Assembly (NCBI RefSeq): GCF_024706985.1 | Contig: NZ_JAMCCX010000017.1 | Span: 186,001 to 250,000, forward strand | DNA from: Alicyclobacillus sp. SP_1 | GTDB taxonomy: Bacteria; Bacillota; Bacilli; Alicyclobacillales; Alicyclobacillaceae | Direction of reading: 5' to 3' | DNA length: 64,000 nt | Shown: in pieces, positions 8,680 through 36,520 of the stretch | Position numbering within the stretch: position 1 is the first letter of the stretch | How the letters are laid out: each line of letters starts with the position of its first letter | Position numbers and translations under genes: made by a program | The notes under the pieces: model-generated | Databases searched by the model: none | What the model was told of the DNA's origin: nothing | Seen by the model: the letters and a program-made list of their open reading frames with translations, nothing else

Positions 8680-9885
8680 GTGGCGAAAATACTCTTGTTA
8701 TACGCATCTTATGGAGACGGACATCGTCAAGTGGCTGCCGCCTTGACGGATGCTTTAGAAGTCGCAGGTCACGAGGTCCATTCGGTCGACATGATGCGCT
8801 CGGCAAACCCGGTGTTTGCGGCTTGGACAGAGCGTCTGTATGAACTCCTAACCCGGTATTTTCCTATCGTTTATGGATGGTCCTATCGTTTGACGGCTTC
8901 CTTATCCACGCGCCACTGGTTGTGGCGCGTGTTGTCTGTCTCTACTCGCCGGTCTGCGTGGCGCGCTGTGGGTGACTATCAGCCTGACGTGGTCGTGCAA
9001 CTTTTTTCCGATCACGCTTTACGACCACCCATCCCAGCTTCTTTGCGCATGCCACGTCGCCTCGTCGTCTTGACGGATTATGCGCTACACAGTCGTTGGT
9101 TTTATCCGAGCGGCGGGGCATACATCTTACCGTCCGCCCGCCTTGTTGTGCGGGCTCAGCGTGAGTACGGGGTGGAAGACCCGCTGTTGGCACTGGGTAT
9201 TCCCGTTCGTCGCGAATTTTGGAGTGCTGCAGAGGGGCATTGCGCGCCAAATATCACCCATGCTGGACGGGACGACGGTGGCATGCTGGACCGACATGAC
9301 TTTTCTTGTGACTCTCCATCGCCTAAGACTCGCGAAGGCTCAACTCCGTATGTATTGGTTCTGACCGGCGGGAGGGGTGTCTTTCCGCAACTCAAGAAAG
9401 TCGTACGAACCCTTCGGCAAGAGCGGCGGGAGGAGACCGTCGTTGTTCTGTGCGGCAGAAATCAGACGATGTATGACCGATTAAACGAGGAATTTTCGGG
9501 AGATCCTCAGGTTTCGGTACGAGGCTATCTCGCTCACGTTCGGCCGCTTCTCAGTGGTGCCAGTTGGGTCGTGACAAAAGCGGGCGGAGTGACCATTGCG
9601 GAATGTTTGGCAGTCGGCGTCCCGTTACTCTTTTTTCGTCCAACACCCGGTCAAGAGTTTGAAAATGCGCGGTTTGTGTCGGAGTCCGGAGCTGGGATTC
9701 TCGTAAAGAACCTCTCTCAGCTAGAAACCGCTCTTCGTGGCCTATCATCGGATATGCTGGCAGAATGGCGACTCGCTGCAGCTCGTCTGGGTCAGCCGGA
9801 AGCAGCCACCAAGGTGGTACAGTTGTTGGAAAATTGGCAAGGGACAGAGGCCCTGGTTGGCCAACCCGAAACGGTCGGACAATAG
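8680..9885 (+). CDS. second MGDG-synthase-like glycosyltransferase
   Basis: This is a paralogue of the gene at 6097, with the same acceptor signature LLYASYGDGHRQVAAA and donor motifs KAGGVTIAECLAVGVP and FRPTPGQEFENA. The GTG at 8680 gives a protein that begins exactly at the conserved first strand. It has no good Shine-Dalgarno and lies four bases after the stop of the preceding gene, so translation is probably coupled. Compared with the first copy, it carries a longer linker between the two domains, rich in acidic and proline residues. Two non-identical enzymes in one operon suggest successive sugar additions or two acceptors. Confidence 0.8.
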   Translation: MAKILLLYASYGDGHRQVAAALTDALEVAGHEVHSVDMMRSANPVFAAWTERLYELLTRYFPIVYGWSYRLTASLSTRHWLWRVLSVSTRRSAWRAVGDYQPDVVVQLFSDHALRPPIPASLRMPRRLVVLTDYALHSRWFYPSGGAYILPSARLVVRAQREYGVEDPLLALGIPVRREFWSAAEGHCAPNITHAGRDDGGMLDRHDFSCDSPSPKTREGSTPYVLVLTGGRGVFPQLKKVVRTLRQERREETVVVLCGRNQTMYDRLNEEFSGDPQVSVRGYLAHVRPLLSGASWVVTKAGGVTIAECLAVGVPLLFFRPTPGQEFENARFVSESGAGILVKNLSQLETALRGLSSDMLAEWRLAAARLGQPEAATKVVQLLENWQGTEALVGQPETVGQ

Positions 9886-9894
9886 ACGACAGAG

Positions 9895-9919
9895 GCCGGG
9901 CGGGGTGACCGCCCGGCTT
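9895..9919 (+). terminator. hairpin after the glycosyltransferase operon
   Basis: GCCGGGCGG and CCGCCCGGC form a perfect 9-bp stem around GGTGA. Only a short TT follows, so it is a strong hairpin with a weak U-tract. It lies between convergent genes and could act in both directions. Confidence 0.6.
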
Positions 9920-18192: not shown

Positions 18193-19051
18193 CCGCCTTT
18201 AAGAAGTGGTACTGGAGTGGGCTGCCCATGTAAATGCGCTCCAGCAGACCTTGTTGTTCCAGATGTTCTGCGTGAGCGAGTAGCGTTCGACGAGCAAACG
18301 GCACAGCCGCTTCTGGCAAGTCTGGGTACAGGCGCTCAAGCATTTCGGTCATGGAAACCGGGGTTTCGGTTGTAGCCATATGGAGTATTTGAGTTTCCCG
18401 CTGGAGCCGTCGCTGTTTCATGCGCAGTGCGGCTTCCGCCGCATTGGCGAGCATTTGACCGTGACCCGGGGCTGCCTTCCAATCTGTACGTGTGGCGAGG
18501 TCATCCAAGGTCGCGTAGTATGCGTCCATGTGTCCATCGGGCGCTCCAATCCAGACCGTTCCGGCGGCTGTCAGGGAATCACCCACAAGAACCACGCGGT
18601 CGCTAGGTATTGCGACATGGATATGGCCGTGGGTGTGTCCGGGTGCGTCAACGATGTCCACACGAAGGTCGTTTACAATAAATTCTCGCAGGAGAGCCGT
18701 CCAGGGCAGGGGACGCTCCGCGTGTTCGCGAAGGTATGCCGGGAAGTCCCGCGGGTGCAAGTAAGCTGGAGCACTCACGGTATCGGCCAGTTTGAGGAGT
18801 CCGTCGGTGTGGTCTGTATGGTAGTGGGTGGCTATGACTCCAAGCCAATGTTGCACCCCGACCGCTTGAGCGTGTTCAAGCACGTGTTGAATGACCGTGC
18901 TGTCGTCCGTACCTGCGTCCACGAGTAGCCCTTGCCCATGAGCTGCAATTAGGTAGGCATTGGTCGTGGCGGCGGGAGGTAGGGTGTTTGTCGGCAGTTC
19001 CAGCCGATGCACGTGAAGAGACACTTGCTCGGATGTGACGATTTGTGGCAT
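18176..19051 (-). CDS. metallo-beta-lactamase-fold hydrolase
   Basis: This zinc hydrolase of the MBL superfamily has THYHTDHTDG, the metal-binding HxHxDH motif, near residue 85. A further histidine is in DAPGHTHGHIH and the aspartate in VLVGDSL. A C-terminal helical region of about 90 residues (with a winged-helix-like end) resembles the LACTB2/glyoxalase-II-like group. The ATG at 19051 has GGAAGGA upstream and gives 291 residues. The gene ends inside the 3' end of the convergent MFS gene. The natural substrate cannot be told from sequence. Confidence 0.85.
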   Translation of the reverse strand: MPQIVTSEQVSLHVHRLELPTNTLPPAATTNAYLIAAHGQGLLVDAGTDDSTVIQHVLEHAQAVGVQHWLGVIATHYHTDHTDGLLKLADTVSAPAYLHPRDFPAYLREHAERPLPWTALLREFIVNDLRVDIVDAPGHTHGHIHVAIPSDRVVLVGDSLTAAGTVWIGAPDGHMDAYYATLDDLATRTDWKAAPGHGQMLANAAEAALRMKQRRLQRETQILHMATTETPVSMTEMLERLYPDLPEAAVPFARRTLLAHAEHLEQQGLLERIYMGSPLQYHFLKAVNPQT

Positions 19052-19264
19052 AGAAGTCCTTCCTTTCGATGGGGGTCCGCCTCGAAACGAGTTGTTTCTA
19101 GTCTGGATGCTATCGTCTGCCAGCAGCCGCGTCAATGTCTTCTGCTCCTAGGAACCAGGACAAGAGCCGTGACATATGGATGGGGAGAAGTGGTTGTGCT
19201 CTCTACATCGCAGGCAGTAAGCAGAGCAGAACTGCGGACATCCGGTTGGAATGGGGTGTAATAC

Positions 19265-19772
19265 ATGGACCACGGGGCACATTCCGCGCTGTTTTCGCAA
19301 GCGCTGCAAAATGCAAAGCACACTGTCTATGCACACCAAGTATTGTGTTCGGTTCTTGACGAGATGATGTCCAGCTCCGCAACGGCGACATCGCCGTTAG
19401 CAATTTTATTGAAAGAGAATAAGTCTGGGAGTTTGCACAGAGATGTCGTTTGTGGGTCGTTGACTCGGCTTCATTACGTCGAAGGCGCGCCGATTTCGGA
19501 CCATACAGTGCCTCTTTTGCGGCGCATTGTCGCCCACCTGTACGCTGCTCGGCAGTCGGATTCTGTAGCGTCGTCTGCGCTTCGAGCGTGGTCGGGCCAT
19601 ACGGAGAATGACGAAAACTGGAGGCATCTCGCGCAGCAGTGGAACGACCAACGAGTCCATTGGCTACGTGAAACGGCTCGCAGCCTGCGGACTGTGGTGC
19701 CCAATGATGTGTGGGTGGAAGGGAAAGACATGTCTTCCCAGACCTACACAAGTACGGTTGGTACAGCTATGG
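19265..19772 (+). pseudogene. 5' part of a host gene interrupted by the transposon
   Basis: The frame starts at the ATG at 19265 and as it stands stops at 19777, three codons into the transposon end. If the 5-bp target duplication is collapsed and 19772 is joined to 25503, the frame continues for 22 codons to a TAA at 25568-25570. That gives a 191-residue protein ending in KATHAGKTSPQ. The N-terminal part is soluble and rich in His, Ser and Ala, and I recognise no family. The truncated 170-residue form could still be made. The next gene in the same direction was originally the HAD phosphatase. Confidence 0.75.
19768..19772 (+). repeat. target-site duplication, left copy
   Basis: TATGG directly precedes the left terminal repeat. 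The same five bases follow the right terminal repeat at 25498-25502. With the preceding C the match is six bases. Confidence 0.75.
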
Positions 19773-21323
19773 CCTGAATCCGTGACGTCTATATCAAATT
19801 CATTCAATCATTGAATTACTTTCGGAAGTTTGCTGTGTGGCAAGATGGTTCCCAAAGCCCTGGACTTCATGCGAGCTCAAACAGATCCGGCATGAATTTT
19901 CACCCGGAGAATCCAAGCTATTGGTTTAGACCGTCAACCGAATGCCAGGTACAGACGCTGGAACACAGCGAACCATGGGTTTCCTCTACCCAATCTGAGA
20001 TAGTGGCGGCGTGCATGTGTAGTCACCTTGGCGGCCAGTGTCATCAGGTTTTGGATCACGGTTCGAATCCTCCGGCGCTACACTGTGTTTTTCAGCGGCG
20101 TGTCTTCTCGCTTCAGGCTTTCTTGCCCAACGATGCGCAGAAGATTGTAGGCGAGTACGGCAAAATGAAGAATAAGCTCATGGGTGGGGAATTTGCCGGA
20201 TGGAAGCCGCTCAGCGTCGAGATCTGTCTTGATTTCACTGTGGAACTGCTCCATCGTCCCGTGAGCATGGTACAGTTCAATCACCACTGAGGCCGCATCC
20301 GGCAGCGAAGTCAAATAGACGTCAACCTCGATCTCGGGCACGAGGAGCATCTGGCCGTGTTTGTCGATGGTGCGTTCAAGGACCTCGAAGACCATCCGGA
20401 CTGGCTTATCAAGCTTCTTCATGGGGGACATCATCGAACCACGGTAGACTTTCTTCCCCATGCGAGGCTCGCAACATATGCCGTGAGTCTAGGCGGTGTG
20501 TAACCATACCTGCGGGCTCTCTCGGCGTAAATTCCGCTTGATGATGAAGTCGGCGTGCGTGTCTTCAGATCGGCAGACAACCAAGTTATCTGCGCTGTCG
20601 TTCCCGGAGTCCAATCGAACCAAAATGGGCACAGTGGTGATGCGCTTTGCATAACGAATACTTTCGGCCAGGAACTCTGGGGTGCCTTTCTGGCAATGTG
20701 TACTGCCCTCCCGAAGACTGACATGTACACAGTAGCCCTCAAGGCCGAGATAAGCAAAGATGGGGGCGTACCCGTCGTGTCCCTTGTAGGTTCTGGACAC
20801 GCCTTGTTTCTTGGTCCCTGCATTGTCAAATGGCGAGACATCGATATCCAGTCGAACGTACAGACGATCCTTATCCCGTCCCAGGCGAATCGGCGATACG
20901 GTCACGTCGAAATCGTGCAGGAGGTTCGCTGATTCCTCTAGAATAACGGACTCCCAATCGGATTTTGGGGCAGCCCTATCGAGGCGTTGACGCAGCGTGG
21001 GACTGGATGGAACGGTGTCAATTTGTAACGCAGCAAAAAAGAACTCATCCTCACGAAACGGCTCAATGTGATCGAAATCGCTCTTGCCTTGACAGAGCAA
21101 GCCAAGATAAGAGTAGGCGATGTCACGGTTCGAGCCTGGGTTGCCGAAGGGAACAGCCAACGGGTTAGAAGTCCAAGCGAGTGCTGGGGAAACAGACTTT
21201 GGATGTAGTCGAGCTACAGGAGTGAGACGAAATTCCCCAAATGACCCTAGGGTCATTGTCTGAGAACATCACGAAGAGTCCAAGACCCTATACTAGGTTT
21301 TCATGAAGTTTTCAAAGAACCGT
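19773..21323 (-). mobile_element. IS1380-family insertion sequence, left copy
   Basis: The copy begins with its outer inverted repeat at 19773. The transposase gene is on the minus strand. Similarity to the right copy continues to TTTTCAAAGA near 21318 and then stops, so the inner terminal repeat is missing. Bases 19878-20839 appear identical to 24330-25291 by eye, while both flanking parts are clearly diverged. A perfect 18-base palindrome lies at 21240-21257, at the transposase start. Confidence 0.8.
20078..21256 (-). pseudogene. IS1380-family transposase with an in-frame TAG
   Basis: The frame shows a DDE transposase of the IS1380 family: PGSNRDIAYSYLGLL, then LYVRLDIDVSPFDN with the first catalytic aspartate, SRTYKGHDGYAPIFAYLGLE, and RLDSGNDS with the second. 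The C-terminal part has HGTMEQFHSEIKTD with the glutamate. A single TAG at 20489-20491 divides it; reading through would give one continuous protein in the same frame. Downstream, VYLTSLPDAASVVIELY continues the domain. The right copy carries the same TAG. Confidence 0.8.
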
Positions 21324-21498
21324 GTTGTTGGGCCCCGGCTTCCGATCCTCGCCCTTCGGGCTGTGGTGCGGGTTCGGCTACACCCTCCAACTGCTACAAC
21401 TATCTCGCTGGAAATTCTTTAGTAAGAGGACTCTAAATGGTGTTAGGCTATAAGGGTTGACACGGCGAATCGAGAATGTAAGAATAAGGTGATTCGAG

Positions 21499-21795
21499 GT
21501 GAGCCACGTGACACAGAAATATGATCAGGAGTTCAAGCTCCATTCAGTGCAGCTGGCGATGGAGAATGGGAAGACTACGACCCAAGTGGCCCGGGAGCTG
21601 GGTGTATCGCAAAAGACGCTGTATGGCTGGATTTCCAAGTATCGAGAGGATTCATCAGCCCCGTTTGTAGGGAGTGGAAATCTGAGGCCAGAAGCGAAGG
21701 CTCTCCGTGATCTGGAGCGGGAGAATCGGGATTTGAGAGAGGAGAATGCAATTTTAAAAAAAGCAGTGCGCATCTTCACAAACGACCGGAAGTAA
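21499..21795 (+). CDS. IS3-family transposase OrfA
   Basis: The 98-residue protein has a helix-turn-helix (TTTQVARELGVSQKTLYGW, residues 25-45) and a C-terminal leucine-zipper-like coiled coil (RDLERENRDLREENAILKK), both normal for OrfA. The start may be GTG at 21499 or GTG at 21508. A run of seven A residues followed by G at 21756-21763 is a standard -1 slippage signal. The -1 frame stays open into orfB with the typical sequence RPEVRYQFIHRYR. Confidence 0.88.
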   Translation: MSHVTQKYDQEFKLHSVQLAMENGKTTTQVARELGVSQKTLYGWISKYREDSSAPFVGSGNLRPEAKALRDLERENRDLREENAILKKAVRIFTNDRK

Positions 21796-22673
21796 GGTAC
21801 CAATTCATCCACAGATACCGCTCCAAGTTTTCGGTTGAGAAGATGTGCAAAGTGTTGAAGGTATCTCGGAGCGGTTACTATGCATGGTGTGAACGTCCGG
21901 AGAGTGAACGGACAAAGCGCCGCAAACGCATTACAGGGCGGGTACATCAGATATTCGTGAAATCTCGACGGCTATACGGCAGCCCGAAAATTACGCAGGT
22001 GCTACGTCAAGAGGGTGAACGCATCGGTCAGAAGACCGTTGCCAAAATTATGCGGGACAACGAGCTCAGGAGCCGCACCGTGCGCAAATACAAGGCGACC
22101 ACATACTCGAACCATGATGACCCAGTACAAGAGAACGTGCTGAACCAGGAGTTCGTGGCAGAGCGCCCCAACCAAGTGTTTATGTAAGATATTACCTACA
22201 CCCCAACTGCAGAGGGGTGGCTTTACGTTGCGAGCCTGATGGACTTGTACAGCCGAAAAATCGTTGGTTGGCGCGCAGATTCGCGAATGACAAAGGAACT
22301 ATGCATTGCTGCGCTGGAGCAGGCTTATGAGCGCCAGAGGCCCATAGAGCCCGTGTTACATCATTCGGATCGTGGGAGCCAATACGCCTCTCACGACTAC
22401 CAGAATAAGCTACGAGAGTATGAGATGACCGGAAGCATGAGTCGCAAGGGGAATTGTTTTGATAACGCCTGTATCGAGTCGTTTCACAGTGTGCTCAAGC
22501 GCGAGCTCGTCTATTTGGAAAAATTCGAGACTAGAGAGCAAGCAAAGAAACGAATTTTCGAGTACATCGAAGTGTGGTACAACCGGGAGCGCATTCACTC
22601 ATCGACGGCTTACATGTCACCGGTCGAGTACGAAAAAAGATATTTCCAGATGTTAAGAGACGAAGCAAGTTAA
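21756..22673 (+). pseudogene. IS3-family transposase OrfB with an in-frame TAA
   Basis: Read in the -1 frame from the A-run, this is the rve-type integrase: SVEKMCKVLKVSRSGYYAW, then RPNQVFM, a TAA at 22185-22187, and DITYTPTAEGWLYVASLMD with the first catalytic aspartate. The second aspartate is in HHSDRGSQY and the glutamate in CIESFHSVLKRE. The stop replaces the usual residue before DITY, so the element is probably inactive unless the stop is suppressed. An internal ATG at 21843 could start a shorter product. Confidence 0.85.
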
Positions 22674-22781
22674 GTGAACGAAACACCGTTTTCGGAATAT
22701 TAGAACTTACATCTTCTCTGTTTTGGGGTGTCCGTTCTATTGACTTAATACCAAAACACACTATACGAGGAGGGTACAATA

Positions 22782-23825
22782 CTGAAAAATCCCCTGAAAG
22801 TATCATGTTGCTCTTTGGCTATTTTTTCGACTTTCACTTTGGCTATTCCGGTTGCCCATGCGGCTACCAATAATCCCACGGCACCAGCAATGCATCATTT
22901 CCATACACCACCAGCCAATTTTAATCCTTTAAATGTTTCTGATGCACAATTAGAGGAGTATGGATTTCCTGTTCGCCCTACCAATCCTCAATATCTATCA
23001 GGTTGGATTGCTGCAATGAAAACTTTTCGAGTTATGCTAAAACCAACATTCAAAGTACGATATATCAGAAAGACAATGCCGAAAGGTAAATTACTGAATC
23101 CCAAAGTTGAAACTACGAGCAATACAATTGAGCATGCAGTAAATCCTATTTGGTCCGGATATTTAGATTACGCTCAAAATGCAACTTACAATTTCACTGA
23201 TCTCCAGGGAACATTTATTGCCTCACCTATTGATTCTGCATATAGTTCAACGGGTTCTCACTATTCATCTTGGTTTGGATTTGGTGGATATAGCGGACTT
23301 GAAGGGCACAATAGCCCGTATGTTTTACAATCCGGAATTTCAGCAACGCTAAATTCTGCAGGAAACACAAGCTTTGCACCATTTTGGGAAATCGGAGGAT
23401 TTAATTACGAACAAAATCTAGGATATTTAGCTATTTATTCAGGAGATACAATGTATGTCGACATTAGCTACACCGTCAATGCTGGAGGTGATTTTAAGTA
23501 TTTTGTTGAAAACGAATCTACTGGAAAAGCGGTGTCAGGATACGTTGAAGATTCTTCGGGTTATTATGATGGTACAGAGGCAGAAGCCATCACAGAAGCC
23601 AATAGTGTAGACGGGCAGATTAATTGTGGGGATTTCCATAGTGTATCTTTCAATAACATAAGTACTAATAGTATCTCAAACCAGAGATATGGAATTACTG
23701 ATCAGGATAGCCCATATCAGATTTTCCGTCTTACAGCGGAGGATAGTAACGATACAGTGTTAATTAACGCTTCACAGCCGACTAGTTCATCTAGTTTCGT
23801 AACATATTGGCATAACGCGACGTAA
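22782..23825 (+). CDS. secreted G1 (glutamic) peptidase, eqolisin family
   Basis: The mature part matches the G1 family of acid-active endopeptidases. WSGYLDYAQNATYNFTDLQG is the first sheet and WFGFGGYSG is the conserved turn. YVLQSG carries the probable catalytic glutamine, and AEAITEANS fits the position of the catalytic glutamate (usual form AEWIVE). FHSVSFNN closes the fold. N-terminal KNPLKVSCCSLAIFS followed by a hydrophobic run and AHA is a signal peptide, which requires a start before the TTG at 22815. GAGGAGGG at 22767-22774 points to CTG at 22782, seven bases on. The gene is AT-rich and foreign in composition. Related secreted G1 enzymes are known in Alicyclobacillus. Confidence 0.82.
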   Translation: MKNPLKVSCCSLAIFSTFTLAIPVAHAATNNPTAPAMHHFHTPPANFNPLNVSDAQLEEYGFPVRPTNPQYLSGWIAAMKTFRVMLKPTFKVRYIRKTMPKGKLLNPKVETTSNTIEHAVNPIWSGYLDYAQNATYNFTDLQGTFIASPIDSAYSSTGSHYSSWFGFGGYSGLEGHNSPYVLQSGISATLNSAGNTSFAPFWEIGGFNYEQNLGYLAIYSGDTMYVDISYTVNAGGDFKYFVENESTGKAVSGYVEDSSGYYDGTEAEAITEANSVDGQINCGDFHSVSFNNISTNSISNQRYGITDQDSPYQIFRLTAEDSNDTVLINASQPTSSSSFVTYWHNAT

Positions 23826-23865
23826 TATAAAATAATAACTCTTCACAACTTATGGAGGCGATATT

Positions 23866-24204
23866 TTGAAGTGGATACTTATACTGGTTGCTGTTGTATC
23901 GACCTCTATCCTTACAGGATGCTCATCACAAACAGGCAACTCTTCACAAGCTTCACTGCATAGTAATACAACAGGGACGCAACCCACTTGGGGATGGTTG
24001 GCCACAATCAATTGGAACAAGAAAACTTGGGATGCAGAAGCTAGCAAAAATTTTATTTCAAAAGTTGGTTCGAAAATCGGAGAAGCAAAGGTTAACGACT
24101 ATTCTTTTCCCGTTTACAGTGTCCCCGGGGTGAGTCCTTCTATAGAAATTGCTGTTCCATCTGGAAAAGCCAACTGGTATATAACTTACAAGGCTACCAA
24201 ATAG
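23866..24204 (+). CDS. small secreted lipoprotein, unknown
   Basis: The 112-residue protein has a lipoprotein signal: LILVAVVSTSILTGC, with the lipobox LTGC at residues 16-19. A serine- and threonine-rich linker follows, and then a compact domain with tryptophans (GWLATINWNKKTW) and an IEIAVPSGKANWYITYK end. The TTG start at 23866 has GGAGGCGAT upstream. It lies 40 bases after the G1 peptidase and shares its AT-rich composition, so the two are probably one transcript. Roles such as a chaperone, inhibitor or anchor for the protease are guesses. It ends 20 bases before the second IS1380 copy. Confidence 0.7.
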   Translation: MKWILILVAVVSTSILTGCSSQTGNSSQASLHSNTTGTQPTWGWLATINWNKKTWDAEASKNFISKVGSKIGEAKVNDYSFPVYSVPGVSPSIEIAVPSGKANWYITYKATK

Positions 24205-24223
24205 GCAGGTGTATAAATATAAA

Positions 24224-25497
24224 CCTGAATCCGTGACATCTGTACCAAATTCCTTCGTGCATGAGACTGCTCTCGTCGGTGTGCACGAGGAGATAAGATG
24301 ATTTGCACGTGTGTCGGCTGAGAGCAGCCCAAACAGATCCGGCATGAATTTTCACCCGGAGAATCCAAGCTATTGGTTTAGACCGTCAACCGAATGCCAG
24401 GTACAGACGCTGGAACACAGCGAACCATGGGTTTCCTCTACCCAATCTGAGATAGTGGCGGCGTGCATGTGTAGTCACCTTGGCGGCCAGTGTCATCAGG
24501 TTTTGGATCACGGTTCGAATCCTCCGGCGCTACACTGTGTTTTTCAGCGGCGTGTCTTCTCGCTTCAGGCTTTCTTGCCCAACGATGCGCAGAAGATTGT
24601 AGGCGAGTACGGCAAAATGAAGAATAAGCTCATGGGTGGGGAATTTGCCGGATGGAAGCCGCTCAGCGTCGAGATCTGTCTTGATTTCACTGTGGAACTG
24701 CTCCATCGTCCCGTGAGCATGGTACAGTTCAATCACCACTGAGGCCGCATCCGGCAGCGAAGTCAAATAGACGTCAACCTCGATCTCGGGCACGAGGAGC
24801 ATCTGGCCGTGTTTGTCGATGGTGCGTTCAAGGACCTCGAAGACCATCCGGACTGGCTTATCAAGCTTCTTCATGGGGGACATCATCGAACCACGGTAGA
24901 CTTTCTTCCCCATGCGAGGCTCGCAACATATGCCGTGAGTCTAGGCGGTGTGTAACCATACCTGCGGGCTCTCTCGGCGTAAATTCCGCTTGATGATGAA
25001 GTCGGCGTGCGTGTCTTCAGATCGGCAGACAACCAAGTTATCTGCGCTGTCGTTCCCGGAGTCCAATCGAACCAAAATGGGCACAGTGGTGATGCGCTTT
25101 GCATAACGAATACTTTCGGCCAGGAACTCTGGGGTGCCTTTCTGGCAATGTGTACTGCCCTCCCGAAGACTGACATGTACACAGTAGCCCTCAAGGCCGA
25201 GATAAGCAAAGATGGGGGCGTACCCGTCGTGTCCCTTGTAGGTTCTGGACACGCCTTGTTTCTTGGTCCCTGCATTGTCAAATGGCGAGACGTCGATATC
25301 CAGTGGGACGTAGGGACGCTCTTTATCCCGTCCCTAATGAACAGGGGAGACTGTGGCTTCAAAATCATGCAGATGAAGCGCAAGAGATCACCTCATAGGT
25401 GAGTTTAGGAGAATAAGATTATCTCCGAATCTCTCGATTTTACTCCATCTTTCTACGAATATCTACGGTTTTCAAAGACCCGCGTCACGGATTCAGC
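24224..25497 (-). mobile_element. IS1380-family insertion sequence, right copy
   Basis: This copy has both ends: CCTGAATCCGTGAC at 24224 and the inverted form ending at 25497. At about 1.27 kb it is shorter than the left copy because much of the transposase 5' part is missing. Bases 24330-25291 appear identical to the left copy. Beyond these limits it diverges sharply on both sides, although the left end keeps the same length to within one base. Confidence 0.8.
24530..25381 (-). pseudogene. truncated IS1380-family transposase
   Basis: This is the same protein as the left copy from SRTYKGHDGYAPI onward, including the TAG at 24941-24943. Farther upstream the frame carries a second stop (TAG at 25334-25336), within the segment corresponding to TVSPIRLGRDKDR of the other copy. 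The N-terminal domain is absent. It cannot make an active enzyme. Confidence 0.8.
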
Positions 25498-25502
25498 TAT
25501 GG
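25498..25502 (+). repeat. target-site duplication, right copy
   Basis: TATGG follows the right terminal repeat directly and matches 19768-19772. Confidence 0.75.
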
Positions 25503-25570
25503 GAAAAGGCGTGGCAGGTCAAGGCGGCGTGGGGAAAGCGACCCATGCAGGGAAGACCAGTCCACAGTAA
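25503..25570 (+). pseudogene. 3' remnant of the interrupted host gene
   Basis: Joined to 19772, this stretch gives 22 in-frame codons (GKGVAGQGGVGK, then ATHAGKTSPQ) and a TAA. The next gene's ribosome-binding site, GGGGGA, follows within 20 bases, so the interrupted gene was probably the first gene of a unit with the HAD phosphatase. Confidence 0.7.
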
Positions 25571-25596
25571 GAAGAGCGGGAATAGGGGGATCTGTT

Positions 25597-26466
25597 GTGT
25601 CGGATACGTCGTCTTGCGGGATTCATCCGTCTGTCCGCCTTGCGCTTCTCGATCTCGATGGCACTCTATATCGCGGTCACCAGCCCATGGACGGCGCTGC
25701 GCAGTTTGTGGAACAATTGCGTTTCCACCATATCCAGCCAGTATTCTTCACGAACAACGCCACCCGCAGTAGAGACGAAGCGGCGCTTCATTTGCGCCAA
25801 CTTGGCTTTGCCGTCGCGTCGTCAGAAGTGTATTCTTCCGCGATGGCAGCCTCTACTCTCTTGTCGTCGACCTTCGCCCTGACGTGCGGGAGTGTGGTCG
25901 CTTATATCGGCCAGTCCGGATTGCGCGAAGCACTTCAATCTTCTGGGTACCATCCCGTTCATCCGCGGGACCCATTGTGGTCTATCGAGAAAGACCAGGC
26001 AGCGGCAGTCGTGGTCGGTTTGGATATGGACGTGAGCTATCGGCAGTTGGCCGAGGTGGCGGACGTGATTCGCCGCACGGATGCATTTTTGTTGACCAAC
26101 GCAGATGCCCAGTTCCCGTCGGAAACTGGGCTGTATCCGGGCAATGGAGCGATTGGCGCGTTCCTTCAGACGGCTTCAAAGAGGGTGCCACGGATTGCCG
26201 GCAAGCCGTCGCCACAATTTGCAGAATTGGCCTTGCGTCAGTTTGGCGTCCGCCCAGAGGAAGCTGTGGTGGTTGGTGACAACCTTGAGACGGACATGGC
26301 TTGTGGATTGGCTGCAAAGATCAATTCTTTTTTCGTGCGGACAGGAATTTCGACAACTGATGCAGAATTGTCGAGATGGCGTCAGCGCTTCTCCGAAAAC
26401 GGGCACACCTTATGCGTGTACGATTCGATTGCACAGATTCCGTTCTTGGACGAGCCTTCTCTGTGA
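25597..26466 (+). CDS. HAD-IIA family phosphatase (NagD/AraL-like)
   Basis: This is a haloacid-dehalogenase-superfamily phosphatase. Motif I is LLDLDGTLYRG (nucleophile aspartate near residue 20), motif II is FFTNNATRSR, motif III includes AGKPSPQ, and motif IV is VVGDNLETDM. The cap between motifs II and III is of the IIA type, as in NagD, AraL and p-nitrophenylphosphatases, which act on small sugar or nucleotide phosphates. The GTG at 25597 has GGGGGA nine bases upstream. Its original promoter probably lay before the transposon, so its expression may have changed. Confidence 0.87.
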   Translation: MSDTSSCGIHPSVRLALLDLDGTLYRGHQPMDGAAQFVEQLRFHHIQPVFFTNNATRSRDEAALHLRQLGFAVASSEVYSSAMAASTLLSSTFALTCGSVVAYIGQSGLREALQSSGYHPVHPRDPLWSIEKDQAAAVVVGLDMDVSYRQLAEVADVIRRTDAFLLTNADAQFPSETGLYPGNGAIGAFLQTASKRVPRIAGKPSPQFAELALRQFGVRPEEAVVVGDNLETDMACGLAAKINSFFVRTGISTTDAELSRWRQRFSENGHTLCVYDSIAQIPFLDEPSL

Positions 26467-26492
26467 CTCCTTGAAAAAAGTTTTCCCCCGTA

Positions 26493-26521
26493 TTGTTATA
26501 GTCATATCTAGAGCTTATAAT
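26493..26521 (+). promoter_or_regulatory. nrdR-nrdJ promoter
   Basis: TTGTTA and TATAAT are 17 bases apart, with a perfect -10. The upstream NrdR-box half overlaps the spacer and the second box lies just downstream of the expected start, a layout suited to repression. Confidence 0.65.
26499..26514 (+). promoter_or_regulatory. NrdR box 1 (weak)
   Basis: The core CATATCTAG at 26503-26511 matches the core of box 2. Against the NrdR consensus ACACwATATATwGTGT about 8 of 16 positions agree. It lies inside the promoter spacer and -10 region. Confidence 0.45.
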
Positions 26522-36458: not shown

Positions 36459-36520
36459 TTACTTTAGGAAGAAGAGCCATCGAGTGGTTCGCTTGCACTA
36501 CAAATGATTCAGGAGCTAAA

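Follow-up and report, generated by a model that had tools for sequence, protein, structure and literature searches.

The window analysed here, a 64,000-nucleotide stretch of contig NZ_JAMCCX010000017.1 from Alicyclobacillus sp. SP_1, contains a 5.7-kb segment that lies within a small gene and is bounded by two insertion sequence (IS) copies of the IS1380 family. From left to right, the segment is composed of a truncated IS1380 copy, the left-end remnant of an IS110-family element in which an IS3-family element is nested, a gene for a G1 (glutamic) peptidase, a small lipoprotein gene, and a second IS1380 copy. We consider it probable that this is a composite transposon, built from two distinct IS1380-family elements lying in direct orientation, which inserted at the sequence TATGG and has since been immobilised. 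The initial annotation had recognised ends of the IS1380 type, an insertion in a gene, and two IS flanking an AT-rich cargo, all of which stand; its further claim that the whole segment inserted as one piece is regarded here as likely rather than proven, because a single IS followed by later recombination with a circle would leave the same pair of flanking repeats. The event is ordinary in kind and its history unusually readable.

Boundaries of the segment

TATGG is found on both sides of the segment where it had been reported, at 19768-19772 and 25498-25502, and sequence comparison identifies these as the left and right copies of a target duplication. The outer ends that they enclose, CCTGAATCCGTGACG starting at 19773 and CGTCACGGATTCAGC ending at 25497, are inverted repeats of the IS1380 type that agree at 14 of 15 bp. 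Because the single mismatch is the outermost base on the right, the duplication can be read either as TATGG (5 bp) or as CTATGG (6 bp; 19767-19772 on the left), in which case the right end is one base shorter (25496). Agreement over 5 bp between two random positions of the window was obtained in 217 of 200,000 draws, and the match exists only across the outer ends of the unit, as the right IS1380 copy alone has no matching flanks.

As a yardstick for the duplication we used relatives of these IS, which turned up in 20-21 of the 59 genomes that represented the order, that of the strain itself included (one search of this set scored six candidates per genome). The left terminal repeat of the unit is identical to the repeats of intact relatives, and the right one is a single base off. 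One genome, G008, has two intact IS1380 copies of 1620 bp with an open transposase frame of 450 amino acids, the same ends as the unit, and 5-bp duplications (ATGAA and TCTCA). The survey covered 24 loci, with full-length copies chosen from G008, G011, G025 (Ferroacidibacillus organovorans, same order), G043, G047 (Alicyclobacillus fastidiosus), G048, and G055 (A. macrosporangiidus), plus G007 and G028. Full-length elements were found in 22 of these loci, 23 elements altogether; in the loci from G007 and G028 (L126 and L127), no element was full-length and bounded by exact 12-bp ends on both sides. Flanking repeats accompany 20 of the 23 elements and measure 5 bp in 13, 6 bp in three, and 7 bp in four of them, counts within which two A. 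fastidiosus copies with identical flanks (L121 and L123) possibly represent one event. Since the duplications of these relatives are of 5-7 bp in 20/23 cases, TATGG has the expected length; repeats of 4-5 bp are described for IS1380-family elements in PMC12116815. As for L121 and L123, the same 10 bases are found on each side of both copies (ctgaagtatt / gtattttgta), and for that reason a larger stretch around them may have been duplicated.

The interrupted gene

The target gene is located at 19265-19777 on the plus strand. Its present frame has 170 codons (169 plus GCC) and is closed by a TGA that comes from the left IS1380 end, while its displaced final codons, with their TAA at 25568-25570, occupy 25503-25570 (plus strand) beyond the segment. 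Excision of the unit together with one TATGG restores a 191-codon frame ending at that TAA, which reproduces the rejoining of 169 and 22 codons without a frameshift previously described. That so clean a rejoining is unlikely by chance, as was then argued, is not borne out by the window itself: an open stretch of 22 codons or more begins at 36,482 of 63,930 plus-strand positions (57%, with real genes counted) and at 23,898 of 63,930 positions (37%) after base shuffling, and past 25503 the other two frames run on for 89 and 320 codons without a stop. We therefore regard the open tail obtained by rejoining as weak evidence and dropped it as a strong argument.

Homologues of the target gene occur in 19 of 41 genomes searched, that of the strain included, and 14 of the 18 relatives had their loci examined; the protein had no match in Pfam or NCBIfam at an E value of 0.001. 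In the window, the target gene adjoins a gene for a HAD-type phosphatase (25597-26466, plus strand), whose GTG start at 25597 is preceded by a purine-rich stretch. The uninterrupted gene beside this phosphatase gene, which the initial annotation had proposed to look for in related genomes, was indeed found in 3 of the 14 loci (L006, from the same genus, L007, and L008). In these three, a putative nrdR-like gene follows the HAD gene, and L006 and L007 also carry an upstream putative metallo-hydrolase gene, both names being given by reading. The HAD gene was not seen in the other 11 loci within at most approximately 1.5 kb (less in L010 and L019).

The insertion point is after codon 169. In 12 of the 14 loci, the match to the target protein ends at residue 153-160 and the relatives' genes stop 1-11 residues past the end of the match, whereas L007 and L014 align further into the tail than the other relatives, to residues 170 and 182, respectively, at 30-31% identity. 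The insertion therefore lies in a variable tail, and because 12/14 relatives lack this tail, its effect was to trim the gene from 191 to 170 residues. The target gene is thus not clearly destroyed but shortened by a stop codon supplied by the element, and its product is likely still made.

The two IS1380 copies

The left copy (19773-21133, minus strand) measures 1361 bp, against 1620 bp for the intact element of G008, with which it shares 83.9% identity. It keeps its left terminal repeat and is devoid of a right end, with both the right repeat and the start of the transposase gone, and it contains TAG stops at 20489-20491 and 20078-20080. Its two pieces match the transposase family NF033539 with E values of 2.5e-51 and 1.2e-28 (174.6 and 99.9 bits), each piece scoring under the whole-protein cut-off of 180 bits. 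The right copy (24224-25497, minus strand; 1274 bp) keeps both terminal repeats and is 346 bp shorter than the G008 element, with an internal deletion at approximately 25371/25372. The same two TAG codons are present in both copies, at positions where the G008 protein has Q. Besides these two copies, the genome of the strain has only degraded IS1380 pieces on contig C10, and a degraded remnant there (L098:1244-1747) is 78-79% identical to the copies of the window.

Both copies resemble the IS1380 family in transposase (NF033539), ends of 12-15 bp, and length of the duplication; however, family members are full-length, whereas the two copies are incomplete, carry two stops, have identical centres, and differ by 30-39% at their ends. 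Over 962 bp, from 19878 to 20839, there are zero differences between them, while only 61/100 positions agree in the first 100 bp and 58/83 after the core. This mosaic suggests that the centres were homogenised by gene conversion, which is the simplest account, given that a simple recent duplication is hard to reconcile with ends that differ so much. Gene conversion of the centres would therefore also account for the presence of the same two stops in both copies.

An identical 962-bp direct repeat inside one contig, in a draft genome of 105 contigs, could also raise the suspicion of an assembly effect, in which the core mislinked four different ends or a cargo circle was unrolled into the chromosome. 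We find this very unlikely. By reasoning, sequences that are 30-39% different should not be collapsed into one by an assembler, so that the near identity seen between the cores is presumably real and only their linkage could be wrong, and neither the target gene nor the TATGG pair outside depends on that inner linkage.

The same core would be a good substrate for crossover, which is pertinent to another scenario: a single IS1380 element inserted at TATGG first, and its core later served for recombination with a circle on which a second, related IS1380 element and the cargo resided. In that case, both outer TATGG copies would stem from the insertion of one IS, and transposition of the cargo between two copies would never have taken place. 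The outward result would be the same as for a composite transposon (direct IS copies and one outer duplication), and it is in agreement with this scenario that GTGACG is present in both outer repeats, compared with GTGACA in the inner left repeat of the right copy. Nevertheless, the differing sites suggest that each copy still has its original pair of ends, the left copy being closer to G008 at its left end (22 vs 12 of 40 sites) and closer to G002 (Alicyclobacillaceae bacterium I2511, same family) at its right end (20 vs 5 of 26). This test is weak, because only one comparison is clear, that of the right end with G002, and further comparisons are near even (14 vs 11 for the right end with G008; 13:13 and 12:12 for the two ends with G025; G002 has no left end). 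All in all, we hold the recombination of a circle into a single IS to be unlikely, although worth bearing in mind. It is distinctly more doubtful that the 962-bp cores are kept alike by ongoing recombination and that the unit continues to exit and re-enter the chromosome in circular form, by homologous recombination at related IS1380 copies; if it were so, a peptidase that acts in acid would be spreading without transposition, in spite of a dead transposase.

The nested IS110 remnant and IS3 element

At its inner end, the left IS1380 copy joins a 309-bp stretch (21129-21437, plus strand) that alignment to the IS110 ends of relatives identifies as the left-end remnant of an IS110-family element, TTCGA (21129-21133) being common to both sequences at the junction. 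The stretch is 83-93% identical to sequences of G009, G017, G008, G041, and G046, which lie directly upstream of the start of an IS110-type transposase. Complete IS110-type frames were found in L094, L101, and L104, and that of L094, the only one run against Pfam, matched DEDD_Tnp_IS110. An RNA family was also considered as a candidate for this region and rejected, given that no match was obtained up to E = 1 across 19000-26500 and that the 309-bp stretch is the IS110 left end.

The remnant is interrupted by an IS3-family element of 1316 bp (21438-22753, plus strand; ends TGGTGTTA and TAATACCA), with orfA at 21499-21795 and an orfB broken by a TAA at 22185-22187. Its assignment is based on orfA/orfB with an rve core, TG..CA ends, and a 3-bp duplication, the AAA found at 21435-21437 and 22754-22756. 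The IS110 ends of G008 and G009, which have no IS3 element, read uninterrupted CTCTAAACACACTATACG; in the window, the IS110 end continues past the IS3 element as CACACTATACGAGG (22757-22770, plus strand) and runs into AGGAGG (22768-22773), the ribosome-binding site of the peptidase gene. When searched in the draft genome of the strain, the IS3/IS110 stretch matched its own place only.

The cargo genes

The peptidase gene (22782-23825, plus strand) encodes a protein of the Peptidase_A4 family (PF01828; E value of 1.7e-18; 67.3 bits against a cut-off of 22.3) that had no match in NCBIfam and matched no solved structure at an E value of 0.001. It has Gln183, Glu268, and Glu272, of which Gln183 and Glu272 are invariant in eight aligned sequences; the candidate catalytic residues are Gln183 and one of the two Glu; its secretion is predicted from a signal peptide recognised by eye. 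The gene probably starts at the CTG at 22782-22784, 8 nt past AGGAGG, where most of the other IS110 ends compared have ATG, the first ATG, GTG, or TTG listed in the frame being the TTG at 22815. Compared by description only, pepG1 of Alicyclobacillus sp. DSM 15716 shares the G1/Peptidase_A4 family and the kept Gln and Glu, and an optimum of pH 3-4 is reported for it (PMC3009609). The second cargo gene (23866-24204, plus strand) encodes a small lipoprotein with an LTGC lipobox, also recognised by eye. The GC content falls to 0.39 at 23001-24000, compared with 0.50-0.58 nearby outside the insert.

In the 41 family genomes, the best relatives of the peptidase, one of them encoded by a second gene of the same strain, are 32-37% identical over at least 240 residues (short pieces reach 47%), and those of the lipoprotein are weak (31-33% identity). 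A set of 398 genomes of the class, taken from a larger group, yielded no nearer relative of the peptidase, nor was any near relative of the cargo found in plasmids or phages. Scans of viral contigs and of named genome contigs with short exact peptide patterns also retrieved no relative, but such patterns detect close relatives only and would miss those as distant as the ones of the family and class sets. The surroundings of other G1 peptidases were scanned for IS ends at eight loci, of which L091 has an exact end on one side, L099 and L130 have ends with two mismatches, and five have none. G002 (L091:7209-7792 and 8851-9906) has a fragment of IS1380 with 94% identity to the left copy, located approximately 1 kb from another G1 peptidase gene. 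Because only one IS end is present there, its appearance as a second carrier of the peptidase unit may be a coincidence.

Origin and fate of the segment

The segment has two IS copies of the same family around cargo genes, outer ends that are IS terminal repeats, and an outer duplication of the length typical of the family, all of which argue for a composite transposon. Its history may be envisaged as follows. An IS1380 transposase would have cut at the left repeat of the left copy and at the right repeat of the right copy, and therefore the peptidase and lipoprotein genes between them would have moved too; the unit would then have entered near the 3' end of the small gene, where a cut staggered by 5 bp was duplicated into the TATGG pair. 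Before or after this insertion, a junction with the left end of an IS110 element, which was located at the ribosome-binding site for the peptidase, would have cost the left copy its inner end, an IS3 element would later have inserted in the IS110 remnant, and gene conversion would have made the centres of both IS1380 copies identical.

Several observations weigh against this interpretation. Neither IS1380 copy encodes a complete transposase, considering the two TAG stops, the truncation of one, and the deletion in the other, and a search of the draft genome, which may miss an unassembled copy, revealed no intact donor. In addition, flanking repeats are missing from 3 of the 23 full-length IS1380 relatives, the right terminal repeat has C rather than G as its outermost base, and this cargo was not found between IS1380 copies at any second place. 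Finally, base-level alignment over the TATGG site was obtained with none of the relatives found, for which reason the empty site is deduced from gene order. Lacking a complete transposase and an intact donor, the segment would owe its transposition to the past or to another host. For want of a working transposase, it is proposed here as an immobilised relic and not as an active transposon and, as no transposase source was found in the draft genome, it should be immobile unless a transposase arrives from outside.

Composite transposons and single-copy modules have both been described. Tn6097 also has cargo genes enclosed by a pair of IS from a single family and an outer duplication, with flanking repeats of 6 bp, but its copies belong to the IS1634 family (PMC3281130), whereas the copies studied here differ at their ends, are dead, and have lost one inner end. 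In ISEcp1/ISEc9 and in IS1380-type modules, an IS1380-family transposase likewise moves neighbouring genes and generates a short duplication, but one IS copy is enough (PMC12116815; PMC3281130), whereas in our segment a second copy supplies the far end. Accordingly, one might think of a capture of that kind, in which the transposase of the left copy used the distant right end of a second IS and took the intervening DNA with it. ISEc9 is described as mobilising genes by one-ended transposition (PMC12116815), transposable modules of a single IS1380-family copy are on record (PMC3281130), and the left copy does lack its own right repeat. However, the right boundary is an IS1380 copy with both repeats, so that the ordinary composite description suffices, and since a capture would differ from it mainly in wording, we consider it highly improbable as a separate explanation.

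The composite transposon proposed here leaves the knowledge of transposition itself unchanged. Its value is that of a readable record of layered insertions, i.e., of which element entered which and what was left, and to it the present analysis added the IS3 element, the IS110 remnant, the identity of the peptidase, the mosaic of the IS1380 copies, and their shared stop codons. It also illustrates how a patchily distributed peptidase gene can become part of a mobile unit, and suggests how gene conversion can spread inactivating mutations to the two arms of such a transposon.

IS110 ends at ribosome-binding sites

The position of the IS110 remnant at the ribosome-binding site of the peptidase gene has counterparts elsewhere. 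The IS110 end CTATACGAGG was found in 12 of 13 loci examined (L136-L145, L147, and L105, not in L146), with eight of the 12 belonging to a single genome, G046. Ten of the 12 have, within 4-14 nt after the end, a start codon that opens a frame of 112 codons or more (one frame is cut by the end of the locus), L136 and L145 being those that do not fit; for comparison, an open frame of at least 50 codons was present at 994 of 6500 random positions. The IS110-family element with this end thus sits on ribosome-binding sites. Targets of this kind are known from IS900, to which work by Doran and colleagues in 1997 reportedly linked them; a target motif is described in PMC8141618.

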